Source: Burkholderia ambifaria (GTDB lineage Bacteria > Pseudomonadota > Gammaproteobacteria > Burkholderiales > Burkholderiaceae). Taken from it: a stretch of DNA of 64,000 nt. The stretch lies in the NCBI RefSeq assembly GCF_001443045.1, contig NZ_LKPJ01000003.1:82810-146809 (forward strand), read 5' to 3'. The notes beneath the pieces were generated by a model. That model made no database searches and was not told the origin of the DNA. It saw nothing but the letters and a program-made list of their open reading frames with translations. A program made the position numbers and the translations under genes. Shown piece after piece: positions 2,604 to 44,256 of the stretch (position 1 is the stretch's first letter; each line of letters begins with the position of its first letter).

Positions 2604-3881
2604 ATGCCTCCCCTGCCCCTGCTCGGCGCGCTGCTCGACACCGCCGGCATCGCACTCAAGGCCGTCCGCGGCGCGGGTTCGTCCGCCGGCGACGATGCCG
2701 CAAACAGCCCGGCCGCCGTGCCGTTCGCGCAGACGCTGAAGCGAAGCGTCGTCACGCGGCACGACACGGCGAACGCCGGCAAGCCGGACGCCACGACGAA
2801 ACACGCGTCGTCGACGCCGGCCGCCGGCACGAAACCCGCCGACCGCGACGACGAGAAGTCGGCCGACGACGCGAACGCGACGTCCGGTCCCGACGCCGCC
2901 GCGCTCGCCGCGGCGGCGGCCGTGCAGGCACAGCTGCAGGCGCGCGAGAACGGCGCGGCGCCGGCCGATGCCACCGCCGCGCAAACGACCGCCGTGTCCG
3001 GCCAGCCTGACGCCACGGCGGCGCTGGCGAATCATGCAGGCAAGGATGCGGCCGCCGTGCCGGCATCGGGCCGCGACGCACTGCAGGGCGCGCTGGCGAG
3101 ACTGACCGGCGGTGCGGGGGCGATCGCGATGCCCGGGACGGGCACGGCAGCGGCCGATGCACCGCTGACGCCGAAAGTCCCGACCTTCGACCACACGCTC
3201 GCCGACGCGAAAGGCACGCTCGCGACGCAGCAGACGCCCACGCAAGCCACCGCCCTGGCGCTGCAGGCCGGCGCGACCGGCCAGTCCGCGGCACACGCAC
3301 TCGCGGCCGCCGGGGAAACCGCCAGCCCGGCCGCCGACGCATCGGTCGCGGCAGCCACAGCGGCGGCGGCGGCCGCCCAGGCGAACGTCGCGACGGCGCC
3401 CGCCGCAAGCTCGATCGCCGCGGCCAACGCGCACGTGCTGGCCCCGCATGTCGGCACGGCCGACTGGACCGATGCGCTGAGCCAGAAGGTCGTGTTCCTG
3501 TCCAATGCGCACCAGCAGAGCGCCGAGCTGACGCTGAACCCGCCGGACCTCGGCCCGCTGCAGGTCGTGCTGCGCGTGGCGGACAACCACGCGCATGCGC
3601 TGTTCGTGTCGCAGCACGCACAAGTGCGCGACGCGGTGGAAGCCGCGCTGCCGAAGCTGCGCGAAGCGATGGAGGCGGGTGGGCTCGGCCTGGGCAGCGC
3701 GACCGTCAGCGACGGCGGCTTCGCGTCGCAACAGAACCCGCAACAGAACTTCGCCGGCGGCCGGTCGTCGCCGCGCGCACGCGCCGGAACGTCAGCCGTC
3801 GACGCACCGCTCGACGCTGCGCAATCCGCAGCGGCCGGCGCGACCGTGAGCCGCGCGGGCCTCGTCGATACGTTCGCCTGA
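2604..3881 (+). CDS. fliK: Flagellar hook-length control protein FliK
   Basis: FliK is a secreted molecular ruler that sets hook length and switches export specificity through its C-terminal domain. The ATG at 2604 (MPPLPLLGALLDTAG) was chosen over upstream in-frame codons because a GAGAGA site precedes it and the upstream part overlaps fliJ. The product has 425 residues: an Ala/Thr/Asp-rich, low-complexity ruler segment to about residue 285, then the conserved Flg_hook domain (ELTLNPPDLGPLQVVLR, with HALFVSQHAQVRDAVE after it), and a Gln/Asn-rich tail. It is the last gene of the visible operon; the next gene is on the other strand. Confidence 0.9.
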   Translation: MPPLPLLGALLDTAGIALKAVRGAGSSAGDDAANSPAAVPFAQTLKRSVVTRHDTANAGKPDATTKHASSTPAAGTKPADRDDEKSADDANATSGPDAAALAAAAAVQAQLQARENGAAPADATAAQTTAVSGQPDATAALANHAGKDAAAVPASGRDALQGALARLTGGAGAIAMPGTGTAAADAPLTPKVPTFDHTLADAKGTLATQQTPTQATALALQAGATGQSAAHALAAAGETASPAADASVAAATAAAAAAQANVATAPAASSIAAANAHVLAPHVGTADWTDALSQKVVFLSNAHQQSAELTLNPPDLGPLQVVLRVADNHAHALFVSQHAQVRDAVEAALPKLREAMEAGGLGLGSATVSDGGFASQQNPQQNFAGGRSSPRARAGTSAVDAPLDAAQSAAAGATVSRAGLVDTFA

Positions 3882-15757: not shown

Positions 15758-16945
<1,188 letters not shown>

Positions 16946-17210
16946 TTTTTCAGGCTCCTGTGTGGTTACGGTTGGTTTCACGTAGCCAGCTTCGTTGGGC
17001 CTGAAGCGGCGACGCTTTAGCGGATTACCAGGACCGGGCAGCGCGCTTCGCGCCAGCCGGCTTCGCCCCGCAAGTTGTCAGTTAACTCGGCGAAGCCCGT
17101 ATTATAGCGGCTTTCGTGAATTGTCACAGAGCGCCACCCGTGCTGCATCGTCCGCTGTCCTACCCCCCTGTTCGCAACGTGCCGGCCAGCCGGCCCCACG
17201 GAGATTCCGC

Positions 17211-39277: not shown

Positions 39278-42244
39278 GTGAACCGCAGTTATTTCCTCTC
39301 GTCCCGAGCGCGCGTCCGACTATATGTCGCACATTCGGCCCTGCTCGCCGGCGCGGCGATGTCGTCGCCGTCAACCGCACAAGTCACGGGCGGCGGCCCG
39401 CAACGAGCCGACGGCATCGAACTCGAAGTTGCGCCGGGTGAATATTCGACGCACAAGTCCGGCGAAGCCGTGCTGTCCGCAATCAACGGCGGCATCCTGA
39501 CGACCAACAGCCGGACCCGCGTCTTTTCGACCGGCAACGGCGCGGCGGGTGCCGCCGCGTGGGGCAGCCAGTCGCGCGTCGTCCTCCGCGATACCGAAAT
39601 CCGGACCCGCGGCAGCTCCAGCGCCGGCATCGACCTTCGTAACGGCGGTAACGCATCCGCGGAGCGCGTGTCCATCGATACCGACGGCGACTATTCGCAT
39701 GGCGCGTCCGTCGACGGCGACAATGCGCGCCTCACGCTGTCCGACAGCGTGATCGTGACGCGCGGCAAGGAAGCGCATGGCATCACGGCGATCCTGGCGC
39801 CGGGCGGCACCATCGACGTGTCCGACACGCTGATCCGTACCAGCGGCCTGTTCGGCGTCGGCCTGTCCATCAGTTACGGCGGCGTCCGGGCGACACTGAC
39901 CCGCACCGATATCCGTACGGATGGCGACTATGCGTCGGTGCTGTATCTACCGAGCGCTTCCACAGTTGCATTCAGCGACTCGCACCTGGAAACCGCCGGC
40001 GACTACGCGCTCGGCGTGGACACGCGCGAGGGCAGCGTCGAGCTCGCGCGCACGCGCGTCATCACGCACGGCAACAGCGCGCACGGGCTTTATGCATCGA
40101 AGGAGTACACCGATACGCCGGCCGTCGATGCAACCGATACGTTCGTGACCACCACCGGCACGCGCGCGATCGGCGCGATCGCCCGCCTCGGCGGCAAGAT
40201 CTCGATGACGCGCGGCGGCATCACGACGAGCGGCGAACGCGCGCGCGGCGTGATGTCGGCCGGTACGGACTCCGTCGCATCGCTCGTCGATACAAGCGTC
40301 GAAACCCACGGCAAGGAAGCCGTCGCGCTTTATTCGAGCGTCGGCGGCACGATCGACCTCGTGCGGACCAGCGCGCGCGCAACCGGCGACGGCGCCCATG
40401 CAGCGGCCGTCTACGGCGGCACGCTGACGATCGATGACGGCTCGCTGGTCAGCGAACGCCACGGCGCGATCGACGCATCCGACGCGATCATCTCACTGAA
40501 GAACGGCACCCGCGCCATCGGCGGCAACGGCACGCTGCTATCCGTCCATGCGGCGTCAGGCGCACCCGTGCTCCTGACGCTCGACACCGGTTCCCGTGCC
40601 GACGGCGACATCGTCAACCAGCCGACCGACGACGGCAGCCCGACGGATGCCGTGACGAACGTCACGCTCGCCAATGCGTCCGCGTGGACCGGCGCGACCG
40701 ACGTGGTCCGCTCGCTGTCGCTGGACACGAACAGCCGCTGGACCGTCACCGCCGATTCGACGGTCGGCTCCGTCGCGCTGAACGATTCGACGATCGCGTT
40801 CGCCGCACCCGCGGCCCGCGGCACGCCGACACCGCGCACACTCGTCGTGACGGGCGACTATGCGGCCCGCAACGGCCGGCTGGTTCTCCATACGACGCTG
40901 CAGGACGACGCGTCGCCCACCGACCGCCTCGTGATCGACGGCGGCCACGCGTCGGGCGACACCGGCATCGTCGTCAAGCGTTCGGGTGGCGACGGCGCGC
41001 CAACGACCGTCGGCATCCCGATCGTCGAAACGCGCAATGGCGGCACGACCGACGCGTCGGCCTTCACGCTCGATGCAGCATCGGACGGCTACCGGCAAGG
41101 CTTCGGCACATTGTCTGCCGGCGGCTACGACTACATGCTCAAGCGCGGCGGCCAGGGCGGCCGCGAGGACGACTGGTATCTCGTCTCCGCGGCAAAACCC
41201 GTTCCGCCGGAACCGCCGCAGCCACCCGGCCCCGTCGATCCCGATCCGCCGATCAGCCCGGAAATCAATCCGCCCCCTCGCACTGCCGCCCCGGAGCCGG
41301 ATGCGTATCTCGCGAACGCCGATGCGGCGTCGACGATGGCAATCCACACGCTGCATCAGCGCGACGATCGCTCGCTGCGCACCGAAGCAGCCGGCCCGCT
41401 CGACGGCGCGGTCTGGCTGCGCGCCGAGGGCCAGATGACGTCGATGTCGGGCAGCAACCGCAGCGTGTCGGGCAACGGCCGCCTGATTCATGCGGGCGCC
41501 GACCTGCTCCGCTTCGACGACGGTCGCGGCGGCAGTATCCGCGCCGGCGCGATGGGCATGTACGGCAGTCAGACGAACTGGTCGACGCGCCCCCTGTGGA
41601 ACGCGATCGAGCACCGCGTGATGAACGCCACCGCTCGCGGCAGCGTCTCCGGCTACAACGTCGGGCTGTATGGCACGTGGTACGGCAACCGCGACATCCT
41701 GACCGGCCCCTATGTCGACGCATGGTTCATGTACGGTGCCTATGCGAACAGCGTCGGCGGCAGCCTCGCAGCCGATTCGTACCGGTCACGCACCGTCACG
41801 GGCTCGCTGGAAACCGGCTATTCGTTCGGGTTCTATGAACGCGGCGACACACGATTCTTCGTCGAGCCCGAAGCGCAGCTCGTCGTATCCGACTATCGCG
41901 CGGATGCACACGGCACGGCCGGCGGCCGTGTCGACGGCCAGGGCTCCACCGACGTGCTCACCCGCCTGGGCGTGCGTGTGCATGGCATAACCGCGATGCC
42001 GCATGGACGCGAACTTCGGCCGTTCATCGAAGCAAACTGGTGGCACGGCCCCGGCTCGCGCTCGCTGATGCTCGATCGCAATGCGTTCTCGTTCAGCGTG
42101 CCGCGCGACCGGGTTGCCGTCCGGATCGGCGCGACCGGGCAGTTGAGCCGGCAATTCTCGATTTCGGCAAGCCTCGGCGTGGAAGGCAATCTGTCCGATT
42201 ATTCGGTCGTCCGGGGGCAACTCTCGGCAAAATATCGCTGGTAA
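39278..42244 (+). CDS. Autotransporter (type Va) with pertactin-like passenger and barrel
   Basis: Outer-membrane protein that exports its own passenger. 988 residues from the GTG at 39278, preceded by AAGGTGAT. Signal peptide to about residue 35 (LAGAAMSSPSTAQ). Passenger to about 635 consists of imperfect beta-helix-type repeats of 30-40 residues with recurrent T-x-G-x-x-A-H-G elements (TRGKEAHGITA, THGNSAHGLYA, TTGTRAIGAIA, THGKEAVALYS). A Pro-rich linker (VPPEPPQPPGPVDPDPP, about 640-660) precedes the barrel of roughly 275 residues starting near WLRAEGQMTSMSG and ending in SAKYRW with the terminal aromatic. Probable adhesin or biofilm factor; ligand unknown. Confidence 0.9.
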   Translation: MNRSYFLSSRARVRLYVAHSALLAGAAMSSPSTAQVTGGGPQRADGIELEVAPGEYSTHKSGEAVLSAINGGILTTNSRTRVFSTGNGAAGAAAWGSQSRVVLRDTEIRTRGSSSAGIDLRNGGNASAERVSIDTDGDYSHGASVDGDNARLTLSDSVIVTRGKEAHGITAILAPGGTIDVSDTLIRTSGLFGVGLSISYGGVRATLTRTDIRTDGDYASVLYLPSASTVAFSDSHLETAGDYALGVDTREGSVELARTRVITHGNSAHGLYASKEYTDTPAVDATDTFVTTTGTRAIGAIARLGGKISMTRGGITTSGERARGVMSAGTDSVASLVDTSVETHGKEAVALYSSVGGTIDLVRTSARATGDGAHAAAVYGGTLTIDDGSLVSERHGAIDASDAIISLKNGTRAIGGNGTLLSVHAASGAPVLLTLDTGSRADGDIVNQPTDDGSPTDAVTNVTLANASAWTGATDVVRSLSLDTNSRWTVTADSTVGSVALNDSTIAFAAPAARGTPTPRTLVVTGDYAARNGRLVLHTTLQDDASPTDRLVIDGGHASGDTGIVVKRSGGDGAPTTVGIPIVETRNGGTTDASAFTLDAASDGYRQGFGTLSAGGYDYMLKRGGQGGREDDWYLVSAAKPVPPEPPQPPGPVDPDPPISPEINPPPRTAAPEPDAYLANADAASTMAIHTLHQRDDRSLRTEAAGPLDGAVWLRAEGQMTSMSGSNRSVSGNGRLIHAGADLLRFDDGRGGSIRAGAMGMYGSQTNWSTRPLWNAIEHRVMNATARGSVSGYNVGLYGTWYGNRDILTGPYVDAWFMYGAYANSVGGSLAADSYRSRTVTGSLETGYSFGFYERGDTRFFVEPEAQLVVSDYRADAHGTAGGRVDGQGSTDVLTRLGVRVHGITAMPHGRELRPFIEANWWHGPGSRSLMLDRNAFSFSVPRDRVAVRIGATGQLSRQFSISASLGVEGNLSDYSVVRGQLSAKYRW

Positions 42245-42295
42245 GCCGCACCGACCGCCGGCGGGGCGTGAAATCCGCACGCTGCGGAATTCCGC

Positions 42296-42301
42296 TATAC
42301 T
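42296..42301 (+). promoter_or_regulatory. Probable -10 element of metX promoter
   Basis: TATACT, five of six consensus bases, 35 bases before the riboswitch-like aptamer. A start near 42308 would put the whole aptamer in the transcript. No convincing -35 is seen 16-18 bases upstream. Confidence 0.5.
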
Positions 42302-42336
42302 CCTCCGACTGCCGCCTCCTTGGCGGCAGGTCGGAA

Positions 42337-42433
42337 GCGCGCCGATTTGCTGACTCGATTGCGGGCGCGCGAACCGGCCGGGGCCTTGAGATGTCTTTGT
42401 CCCGGCGGGTTCACTACAAATGCGGCTAAAGAG
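42337..42433 (+). promoter_or_regulatory. SAM-II-like riboswitch with inserted hairpin, upstream of metX
   Basis: The pattern matches the SAM-II (metA-type) aptamer as I know it. P1 is gcgcgcc (42337-42343) with ggcgcgc (42364-42370). Its loop begins gatttg (42344-42349) and ends attgc. The 3' strand is acaaatgcggctaaagagg (42416-42433), carrying the conserved gctaaa. The pseudoknot would pair atttg with caaat, and ctc of the loop with gag of the 3' strand. Between the two halves lies an extra 12-bp hairpin (42371-42382 with 42401-42412, one mismatch), absent from the minimal aptamer. SAM binding would repress metX; the control mechanism is discussed in the findings. Confidence 0.8.
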
Positions 42434-42445
42434 GTCGTCAGCCGC
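42422..42445 (+). promoter_or_regulatory. Alternative hairpin overlapping the riboswitch 3' strand
   Basis: gcggct (42422-42427) can pair with agccgc (42440-42445). It uses the gct of the conserved gctaaa element, so it competes with the SAM-bound pseudoknot. It may be the OFF/ON switch partner; no U-tract follows, so it is not a typical terminator. Confidence 0.45.
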
Positions 42446-42505
42446 GCATCTCCGACTCCGCGCATCGCCGACACCATTTAGCTGCCCAGTCATAAGGCGG
42501 AACGA

Positions 42506-43651
42506 ATGGAATCGATCGGCATCGTCGCTCCACAGACCATGCACTTCGCCGAACCGCTGCGCTTGCAAAGCGGCAGCGTGATCGGCAACTATCAGCTCGT
42601 CGTCGAGACGTACGGCGAGCTCAACGCCGCGCGCTCGAACGCGGTGCTCGTCTGCCACGCGCTCAACGCATCGCACCACGTCGCCGGCATCTACGCGGAC
42701 GATCCGCGCAGCACCGGCTGGTGGGACAACATGGTCGGCCCCGGCAAACCGCTCGACACCAACCGCTTCTTCGTGATCGGCGTGAACAACCTCGGCTCGT
42801 GCTTCGGCTCGACCGGCCCGATGAGCGCCGACCCGTCAACGGGCAAGCCGTACGGCGCGCGTTTTCCGGTCGTCACCGTCGAGGACTGGGTGCACGCGCA
42901 GGCGCGTGTCGCCGACGCGTTCGGCATCGAGCGTTTCGCCGCGGTGATGGGCGGCAGCCTCGGCGGCATGCAAGCGCTCGCGTGGAGCCTGATGTATCCG
43001 GAGCGCGTCGCGCACTGCATCGACATCGCGTCCACACCGAAGCTGTCCGCGCAGAACATCGCGTTCAACGAGGTCGCGCGCTCGGCAATCCTGTCCGATC
43101 CCGATTTCCACGGCGGCGACTACTACGCGCACGGCGTGAAACCGAAGCGCGGCCTGCGCGTCGCGCGGATGATCGGCCACATCACGTACCTGTCCGACGA
43201 CGACATGGCCGAGAAATTCGGCCGTGCGCTGCGCCGCGCGGACGGCGCGCTCGACGCGTACAACTTCAGCTTCGACGTCGAGTTCGAGGTCGAGTCATAC
43301 CTGCGCTACCAGGGCGACAAGTTCGCCGACTACTTCGACGCGAACACGTACCTGCTGATTACGCGTGCGCTCGACTACTTCGATCCGGCCAAGGCGTTCG
43401 ACGGCAACCTGAGCGCCGCACTCGCGCGCACGCAGGCGAAATACCTGATCGCGAGCTTCTCGACCGACTGGCGTTTCGCGCCGGCGCGTTCCCGCGAGAT
43501 CGTGAAGGCACTGCTCGACAACAAGCGCACGGTCAGCTACGCGGAGATCGACGCGCCGCACGGCCACGACGCGTTCCTGCTCGACGACGCGCGCTATCAC
43601 AACCTGCTCCGCGCGTATTACGAACGAATCGCCATCGAGGTGGGTGCATGA
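42506..43651 (+). CDS. metX: Homoserine O-acyltransferase MetX
   Basis: Activates homoserine with an acyl-CoA for methionine synthesis (succinyl-CoA in many betaproteobacteria, acetyl-CoA in others; not decidable here). 381 residues, alpha/beta hydrolase fold: [40 protein letters not shown], nucleophile elbow [15 protein letters not shown] (Ser151), catalytic Asp near FSTDWRFAP, and His in [20 protein letters not shown] precedes the ATG. It overlaps metW by 4 bases (atga), so the two are coupled. Upstream lies a SAM-II-like riboswitch, consistent with feedback by SAM. Confidence 0.96.
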
Positions 43652-44256
43652 ACCAGCAAGCGCTGAATTCCCTGTCCGCACGCGCGGACTTTCGCGCGAT
43701 CGCCCGCTGGGTCGAACCGCGCGCAACCGTGCTCGACCTCGGCTGCGGCGACGGCTCGCTGCTGTCGCTGCTGTCGGAAGAGCTGGACGTGTCCGGCTAC
43801 GGGATCGAACTGAACGACGCAGGCGTGCTCGCGAGCACGAAGAACGGGATCAACGTGATCCAGCAGAACCTCGAGGACGGCCTGCGCCTGTTCGAGGACC
43901 ACAGCTTCGATTTCGCGATCCTGTCGCAAACGCTGCAGACGATCCACCAGACGGCCGCGATCCTGCGCGAAACCGCGCGGGTCGGGCGCGAGTGCATCGT
44001 GTCGTTCCCGAACTTCGGCTACTGGGCGCACCGGCTGTCGGTGCTGCGCGGCCGGATGCCGGTGTCGAAGTCGCTGCCGTACCAGTGGCACAACACGCCG
44101 AACGTGCGGGTGCTGACGATCAAGGATTTCGAGGCGCTCGCGCCGGAAGTCGGCGTCACAATCCTCGACCGCATCGTGCTGCACGAAGGCCAGCCGATTC
44201 GATGGGGAGCGAACTGGCGTGGTAGTCTTGCTGTCTACCGCGTCAAGCGCAGCTGA
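43648..44256 (+). CDS. metW: Methionine biosynthesis protein MetW
   Basis: SAM-methyltransferase-fold protein always paired with MetX in proteobacteria; reported to be required for, or to assist, MetX activity. 202 residues from the ATG at 43648 within the metX stop. Motif I is [15 protein letters not shown] (residues 28-42), then [26 protein letters not shown], and the family-specific [15 protein letters not shown] and [15 protein letters not shown]. Same riboswitch-controlled transcript as metX. Enzyme substrate unknown. Confidence 0.95.

Follow-up and report, generated by a model that had tools for sequence, protein, structure and literature searches.

We analyzed a 64,000-nucleotide (nt) stretch of the Burkholderia ambifaria genome (contig NZ_LKPJ01000003.1, positions 82,810 to 146,809), referred to here as the window, and focused on the RNA leader upstream of metX-metW. 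This leader is probably a SAM-II riboswitch, of the S-adenosylmethionine (SAM) group, that carries a hairpin at the foot of its P1 stem and acts as an OFF switch for metX-metW through distal sequestration of the Shine-Dalgarno (SD) sequence. Sequence comparison gives good support to the SAM-II identity and to a hairpin inserted between P1 and the P2 strand: compact leaders pass the Rfam threshold, a covariance model built from relatives finds the window leader, and the hairpin covaries. What appears new is the insert-bearing SAM-II form, found on a leader that is very probably already known under another name. Coordinates are window positions on the plus strand unless stated otherwise.

The leader elements lie at 42337–42436 in the order of SAM-II, namely P1, GAUUUG, UUGC, the 42-nt hairpin, and GCUAAAGAGG. 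By direct reading, the P1 strands are GCGCGCC (42337–42343) and GGCGCGC (42364–42370), and the loop between them holds GATTTG (42344–42349), CTGACTCGA, TTGC (42359–42362), and a single G. This P1 and loop unit (42337–42370) is also picked out by the Rfam alignment, by relatives, and by our covariance model R1, described below. The inserted hairpin (42371–42412) follows immediately, then L3, ACTACAAATGCG (42413–42424), GCTAAA (42425–42430), and an SD-like GAGG (42431–42434) that reads on as GAGGTC. In the known SAM-II structure, P2b is formed by UUGC paired with GC(U)AA. The GCUAAA strand sits where it would complete an H-type pseudoknot, and it is invariant, so this pairing carries no covariation evidence. 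L3 together with the 3′ strand of P2, GCTAAAGAGGTC (42413–42436), is the strand expected to contact SAM, judging from relatives, R1, and the contact positions reported for SAM-II (PMC11508383). By analogy, these contacts should map to GAUUU, around UUGC, and to GCUAAA in the window RNA, and from its sequence the leader would be expected to bind SAM.

The ATG of metX lies at 42506 (42506–43651; homoserine O-succinyltransferase, NCBIfam NF047916, 690.9 bits), and metW (43648–44256; TIGR02081, 262.3 bits) overlaps the end of metX in ATGA. The MetX protein is 96–98% identical to Burkholderia MetX records. A preliminary description of this DNA, made from the letters alone, had placed SAM-II-like elements in the right order before metX and about 70 nt ahead of its start codon. 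Direct reading agrees with these coordinates and with the distance, and the NCBIfam matches confirm both genes. The 64-kb window contains the ordered-element pattern once, and none of 100 dinucleotide shuffles contains it.

Searching the entire window with Rfam at gathering thresholds returned no match. With permissive settings, SAM_alpha (RF00521) aligned to the P1 half only (model positions 10–46) at 13.6 bits against a gathering threshold of 36. Neither SAM-V (RF01826) nor SAM-II long loops (RF01726) was among the five Rfam matches up to E 5 in 41900–42700. The weak matches near the leader to CC3513, mir-790, ncS037, and Mcr7 are far under their own thresholds and were set aside. The preliminary description had named the lack of a covariance-model hit as one of two refuting outcomes, and formally this is what the Rfam models give. 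Relatives of the leader give a different picture. Across 20 metX loci with elements, eight scored over the SAM_alpha threshold (best 50.9 bits). In this first set, 7/12 compact loci passed, as did L106, which has extra sequence inside the P1 loop, and all seven loci whose hairpin separates P1 from GCTAAA fell short (L038, L049, L053, L059, L071, L086, and L110). A second set of 12 loci behaved likewise (2/3 compact loci and 0/9 with extra sequence). The leader of one gene thus spans a gradual series, with textbook SAM-II at one end and the insert form at the other, and since 7/12 compact relatives pass, we read the sub-threshold score in the window as a limit of the model.

Next, we built the covariance model R1 from 44 elements, none of them Burkholderia-type (48 were chosen; L071, L137, L197, and L199 were left out of the alignment). 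R1 finds the window leader at 60.6 bits (E 1.8e-17), treating the hairpin as an insertion, with the runner-up in the window at 12.7 bits. Two other R1 matches were rejected as lacking GCUAAA: one at C6 (15.4 bits) and one at G000:C34 (24.1 bits), the latter also overlapping the end of an apparently IS-transposase-like reading frame.

The elements are conserved well beyond the window. We chose 110 metX loci by MetX protein alone (30 from the genus and 80 from named records, with some species represented more than once or by very close relatives), and 81 carry GCGCCGATTTG, TTGCGGGCG, and GCTAAA in order before metX, so the earlier expectation that P1, loop, and GCTAAA would be conserved among metX leaders was borne out. 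Twenty-two of the 29 loci without them come, by record title, from Polynucleobacter or the Massilia/Telluria/Duganella/Pseudoduganella/Janthinobacterium group. The pattern GCGCCGATTTGN{4,34}TTGCGGGCG occurs in 208/399 Burkholderiales genomes (101/158 genera), with zero matches in reversed-pattern controls, and in 236/299 genomes of the family (16/25 genera). For comparative work, 199 raw elements were merged into 172; some of these were found by pattern, so selection accounts for part of the conservation of the pattern letters. "Burkholderia-type" and the other group names used here are labels by loop or tail sequence.

The 42-nt insert begins right after the 3′ strand of P1 and ends 12 nt before the GCTAAA of GCGGCTAAA. 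Its predicted fold (–27.9 kcal/mol) has 5 + 8 pairs and a further 2 at the tip, slightly above the 11 of 12 pairs first proposed for a 42-base hairpin. We compared the arms at fixed positions, using no fold. Among 33 distinct arm pairs, 136/165 cells were paired, and shuffles averaged 95.8 with a maximum of 119 (0/2000 reached 136). Slid registers gave 75/210, 85/185, 59/140, and 38/150 cells. This covariation of both arms across metX leaders, which the preliminary description had asked about, is the signature of a helix retained for its stem; relatives show substitutions such as GAAC/GTTC, GGCA/TGCC, and GAGTG/CACTC, among others, with variable size and tip. An earlier test that took the arms from predicted folds (225/245 vs 126.5 shuffled) was discarded as biased in favor of the fixed-position rule. 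From its position at the foot of P1, the insert could stack beneath P1 and away from the ligand site. Long segments between P1 and GCTAAA are common, as the spacing is at least 24 nt in 65 of the 81 loci and less in 16. Some Burkholderiales have extra sequence in the P1 loop, additionally or instead (Collimonas, Herbaspirillum, L098, and L106).

How does this leader relate to known systems? Like SAM-II (RF00521), which was found upstream of methionine genes with a proposed OFF-switch logic (Corbino 2005, PMC1273637, where Bordetella bronchiseptica is named in the SAM-II figure legend), it has P1, GAUUU, UUGC, L3, and GCUAAAGAGG in order before methionine genes. It differs in the hairpin at the foot of P1, which departs from the compactness of SAM-II with no long segment between P1 and P2, and in its platform, as SAM-II has the SD in P2 or a terminator and the window leader has a proposed distal SD sequestrator. 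SAM-II long loops (RF01726) is a variant family with enlarged loops by name, listed for Bacteroidetes and marine sequences (Weinberg 2010, PMC2864571); we compared it by name and listing. A closer counterpart is the "metXZ element" with a proposed pseudoknot, given for 8/8 Burkholderia in Table 1 of Leyn 2014 (PMC4239095). Genes, clades, and pseudoknot coincide, with a metX copy in the window and a metZ copy in the same genome. The window leader is very probably the same RNA, an identity we infer rather than take from an alignment. We found no published equation of the metXZ element with SAM-II, and no description of the insert, in the openly accessible passages returned by our searches.

Taken at face value, the metXZ element could be a metX leader for another ligand that merely resembles SAM-II. 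The Rfam score far under threshold would fit this, and the accessible text of Leyn 2014 (PMC4239095) makes no SAM-II identification. On the other hand, the graded series runs up to Rfam-positive compact leaders of metX, and GAUUU, UUGC, and GCUAAA are conserved, so we regard a different ligand as very unlikely.

We then considered how a SAM-II aptamer in this position could control metX-metW. At low SAM, GCGGCUAAA (42422–42430) would pair with the distal UUUAGCUGC (42477–42485) and hold that strand away from the ribosome site. At high SAM, GCUAAAGAGG would be held in the P2 pseudoknot, freeing the distal strand, whose CUGCC would close on the GGCGG SD region and the AUG of metX and lower translation. 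The inserted hairpin, at the foot of P1, would stay clear of the ligand site throughout. Computation backs both the existence and the conservation of the two competing pairings, as it does the aptamer homology and the covarying insert. The aptamer strand GCGGCTAAA, the putative anti-sequestrator, is complementary to the distal strand TTTAGCTGC with one G-U pair, and the 3′ part of the distal strand can alternatively form the SD sequestrator (42482–42500), with CTGCC at 42482–42486 and GGCGG at 42496–42500. A downstream complement of GCGGCTAAA (TTTAGC[C/T]GC or a close form) is found in 73/82 Burkholderia-type elements, and in 72/82 it has a p value of 0.05 or less against shuffles. Across lineages with different flanks around GCTAAA, the downstream strand also tends to match its own flanks; the 17/48 distinct cores kept for this test (score 14 or more) give 348, and permuted flanks average 294.3 and reach 327 at most. 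The SD helix, C[C/T]GC[C/T] against GGCGG, is possible in 78/82 elements, with five pairs in 65, six in 11, and four in 2; the loop between its strands varies in length and sequence.

Predicted folds behave as the distal sequestration model would require. In the free fold of the window leader, the long-range helix 42422–42430/42477–42485 has a probability (P) of 0.97 and the SD helix 0.02. Imposing P1 and reserving the P2 strand brings the SD helix to 0.98, and the AUG, with an accessibility of 0.42 in the free fold, drops to 0.01. This constrained fold also lengthens the SD helix with CCATT (42474–42478)/AATGG (42505–42509) and GCCGA (42467–42471)/TCGGC (42516–42520), covering the AUG. We folded 78 of the 82 Burkholderia-type elements in the same way. 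Reserving the P2 strand raised the mean SD helix probability from 0.40 to 0.94 and lowered the accessibility of SD plus AUG from 0.259 to 0.037; the AUG was more open in the free state in 70/78 and the SD in 73/78. The drop in SD plus AUG accessibility was 0.223 with native spacers vs 0.019 with shuffled ones, and it was larger for the native spacer in 75/78.

The preliminary description had suggested that control works through a second hairpin overlapping GCTAAA rather than by direct masking. Its view that this is not simple masking inside the aptamer is supported, as no start codon follows GAGG here, and the hairpin it named is there (GCGGCU/AGCCGC, 42422–42445). One alternative is a SAM-II switch in which this proximal pairing forms without SAM and is melted by SAM. 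All six pairs are possible in 76/82 Burkholderia-type elements, and the free-state probability averages 0.30 over 78 elements with a maximum of 0.99. In the window, however, it is only 0.02 against 0.97 for the long-range helix, the hairpin does not extend to the ribosome site, and GUCAGC could equally lengthen P2a by pairing with the loop GCUGAC. Because the proximal hairpin is a minor free-state fold in the window, the distal strand is the better candidate for the lever. We consider control through the proximal hairpin unlikely and favor distal SD sequestration, with the proximal hairpin possibly an accessory state in these fold models.

A second alternative is that the SD-like GAGG inside the aptamer serves as a distant standby or loading site. 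In Sinorhizobium meliloti, metA needs the SD within its SAM-II aptamer, and its translation starts 74 nt downstream (Scheuer 2022, PMC9373788). The distance from GAGG to ATG in the window is similar, and GAGG follows GCUAAA in 118/172 elements. The two cases differ in that the aptamer SD is required in S. meliloti, whereas the Burkholderia-type leader has its own conserved SD-like stretch by the start codon, along with a conserved pairing partner. GAGG is also expected anyway as part of P2. A standby role for GAGG seems unlikely, if a little less so than control by the proximal hairpin.

Transcription attenuation would place a terminator after the aptamer, as several relatives do. By our strict rule, terminators follow 14/20 short-loop, 8/10 Oxalobacteraceae-tail, 14/28 other, and 3/16 Cupriavidus/Ralstonia-type elements. 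Because the strict rule is insensitive, as the 3/16 shows, we recounted with looser rules; the terminator CCCGAY..RTCGGG-TTTT is present in 15/16 Cupriavidus/Ralstonia-type elements, and a second looser rule also gives 15/16. Leyn 2014 (PMC4239095) likewise reports potential terminators consistently downstream of the metXZ element. In contrast, Burkholderia-type leaders have none (0/82 by the strict rule and 0/82 by the loose rule), and the window leader carries no intrinsic terminator on its plus strand. A run of four T precedes the ATG in only 12/82 of the Burkholderia-type leaders. Attenuation is, in our view, the least probable of the explanations for the window leader.

Other lineages join similar cores to other platforms. 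In Alcaligenaceae-like elements, an ATG lies at most 22 nt after GCTAAA in 10/10, the classical arrangement; the same spacing in 17/162 elements outside this group we take as chance. In the Alcaligenaceae-like loci L100, L102, L104, L108, and L118–L124, an ATG stands directly after the aptamer GAGG or AAGG. In the four checked (L100, L102, L104, and L108), it is in frame with metX with no intervening stop, and the sequence suggests an N-terminal extension of MetX in these genomes. In Cupriavidus/Ralstonia-type elements, a complement of GCUAAA, TTGGYYGC, is present in 15/16, with p values of 0.05 or less in 9/16, and it falls inside the terminator in the sequences inspected. Pandoraea has such a complement in 0/6, and the direct-ATG group in 2/10, of merely 5–6 nt (p 0.168 or more). 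By eye, the Undibacterium-type loci L067 and L215 follow the Burkholderia plan in other letters, with TTTTAGCCTTCC against GGAAGAG before the ATG; their TTTTAGCC strand puts CTTCC opposite the GGAAG of the metX ribosome site and resembles the Burkholderia sequestrator. Separately, the same stretches of L103 and L109 contain an Rfam manganese riboswitch (yybP-ykoY) over threshold, and L126 has one just below.

Several observations weigh against a SAM-II switch working through distal SD sequestration. SAM_alpha reaches threshold in 0/65 Burkholderia genomes. Matches at E 1 occur in 41/65, and we treated these as noise because the same search matches in 8/14 control genomes. At a fixed register across lineages, covariation does not clearly support P2a (120/208 cells vs 112.6 shuffled, with 181/2000 shuffles as high), and the outer P1 pairs covary weakly (42/90 vs 34.1, with 69/2000 as high). 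The anti-sequestrator cannot covary at GCUAAA because GCUAAA is invariant, and conservation among Burkholderia-type elements is partly shared descent, as these are closely related. The SD is mostly paired even in the free state (mean unpaired 0.11 over the 78 elements; window leader 0.09). The SD helix is absent from the constrained fold of at least one relative, L041. In these folds, the bound state was a constraint that we set, and the model includes neither pseudoknot nor ligand energies. Finally, the GCUAAA complement is patchy elsewhere, with p values of 0.05 or less in 9/20 short-loop, 0/10 Oxalobacteraceae-tail, and 1/28 other elements; the complement scheme is therefore not general outside the Burkholderia and Cupriavidus/Ralstonia types.

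Between purF and metZ, gene names that we read from translations, the same genome holds a second SAM-II form on the minus strand (locus L261, contig C3:228300-231300). R1 scores it at 49.6 bits, and SAM_alpha is not among its Rfam matches to E 2. It has a small insert, and its P1, GCGUC/GACGC, is a compensatory change relative to the metX element. A terminator-like hairpin follows before metZ. This site also overlaps RF02424 (Bp2_287), the Burkholderia small RNA Bp2_Cand287 (PMC3521395), which is over threshold in 64/65 genomes of the genus. The RF02424 model overlies the metZ SAM-II core on the opposite strand, and it is antisense to a SAM-II-type core in 28/29 loci examined including L261; the exception, L264, did not match our pattern. 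RF02424 may thus be on the wrong strand, or may mark an antisense RNA.

A more distant form precedes metK, 25 kb from the metX leader. The metK leader (17008–17096, minus strand) lies before the metK open reading frame (15758–16981, minus strand) and starts immediately after a TATAAT box, with GGCTTCGCCGAGTTAACTGACAACTTGCGGGGCGAAGCC, a likely inserted hairpin, and TCCGCTAAAGCG. From its sequence, it appears to be a diverged SAM-II relative. The class consensus is GA[G/U]UUAAYNGACAACUUGC..GCUAAAGCG, in which one position expected to contact the ligand is altered. No SAM family is among the Rfam matches of the metK leader to E 10. R1 scores the window metK leader at 12.7 bits, and compact metK leaders reach 34.7 bits (L283, E 6.5e-10) and 29.0 bits (L291, E 4.2e-8). 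The core pattern occurs in 38/300 genomes (18/134 genera). P1 covaries across the 29 distinct elements compared: pair 5 is U-A in 12, G-C in 12, and C-G in 5, and pair 6 shows the four standard pair types in 28/29. Pairs 5–8 are formed in 55/80 cells vs 36.0 shuffled (maximum 51), and pairs 7–9 are mostly not conserved. All 18 loci L278–L295 are upstream of metK. For the 12 loci L296–L307, no metK match lies within 1.2 kb; the five that were translated start a protein of 99–111 amino acids. On sequence grounds, the metK leaders may sense SAM as a class of their own, or their specificity may differ. A literature search for a metK (S-adenosylmethionine synthetase) riboswitch in Burkholderia returned no paper, and Leyn 2014 (PMC4239095) sought metK regulation in beta-proteobacteria and reported no known regulator, a gap that these leaders would fill.

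We tentatively propose, with rather less assurance than for the window leader, that the homoserine-to-SAM route of Burkholderiales could be run by a family of SAM-II-like RNAs with one ligand core and swapped surroundings. A hairpin at the foot of P1 would be optional, and the platforms would be terminators, a direct SD, or a distal SD sequestrator, the last of these and part of the terminators being built on a strand complementary to GCUAAA with its flanks. The metK leaders would be a diverged class, possibly separate in SAM sensing or altered in specificity. Leaders of this kind seem to serve the methionine pathway across an entire branch of bacteria, and the standard model misses the one in the window. 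The orphan metXZ element would gain a likely class and ligand, and the insert-bearing form would account for the lack of SAM_alpha matches over threshold in Burkholderia. Nature has also combined a single aptamer core with several expression platforms in these leaders, a series on which platform swapping is directly testable.

Upstream of the aptamer, TATACT (42296–42301) is a candidate –10 box for the leader promoter by sequence reading. No –35 box was recognized for it, and a consensus promoter scan of the leader found no promoter. Between this box and P1 lies a strong, GC-rich predicted hairpin without a T-run (42304–42335; TCCGACTGCCGCC..GGCGGCAGGTCGGA). In other genomes, several loci carry tandem arrangements in which an ordinary SAM-II is followed by a metK-type element (L111, in a looser form, L222, L224, L225, L297–L299, and L301–L305). 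The translated tandem cases are upstream of a small protein starting MYDC or MFDC, and several tandem loci share genomes. At L283, an Rfam SAH riboswitch is found over threshold (2829–2916, plus strand; 61.4 bits) downstream of the metK-type element.
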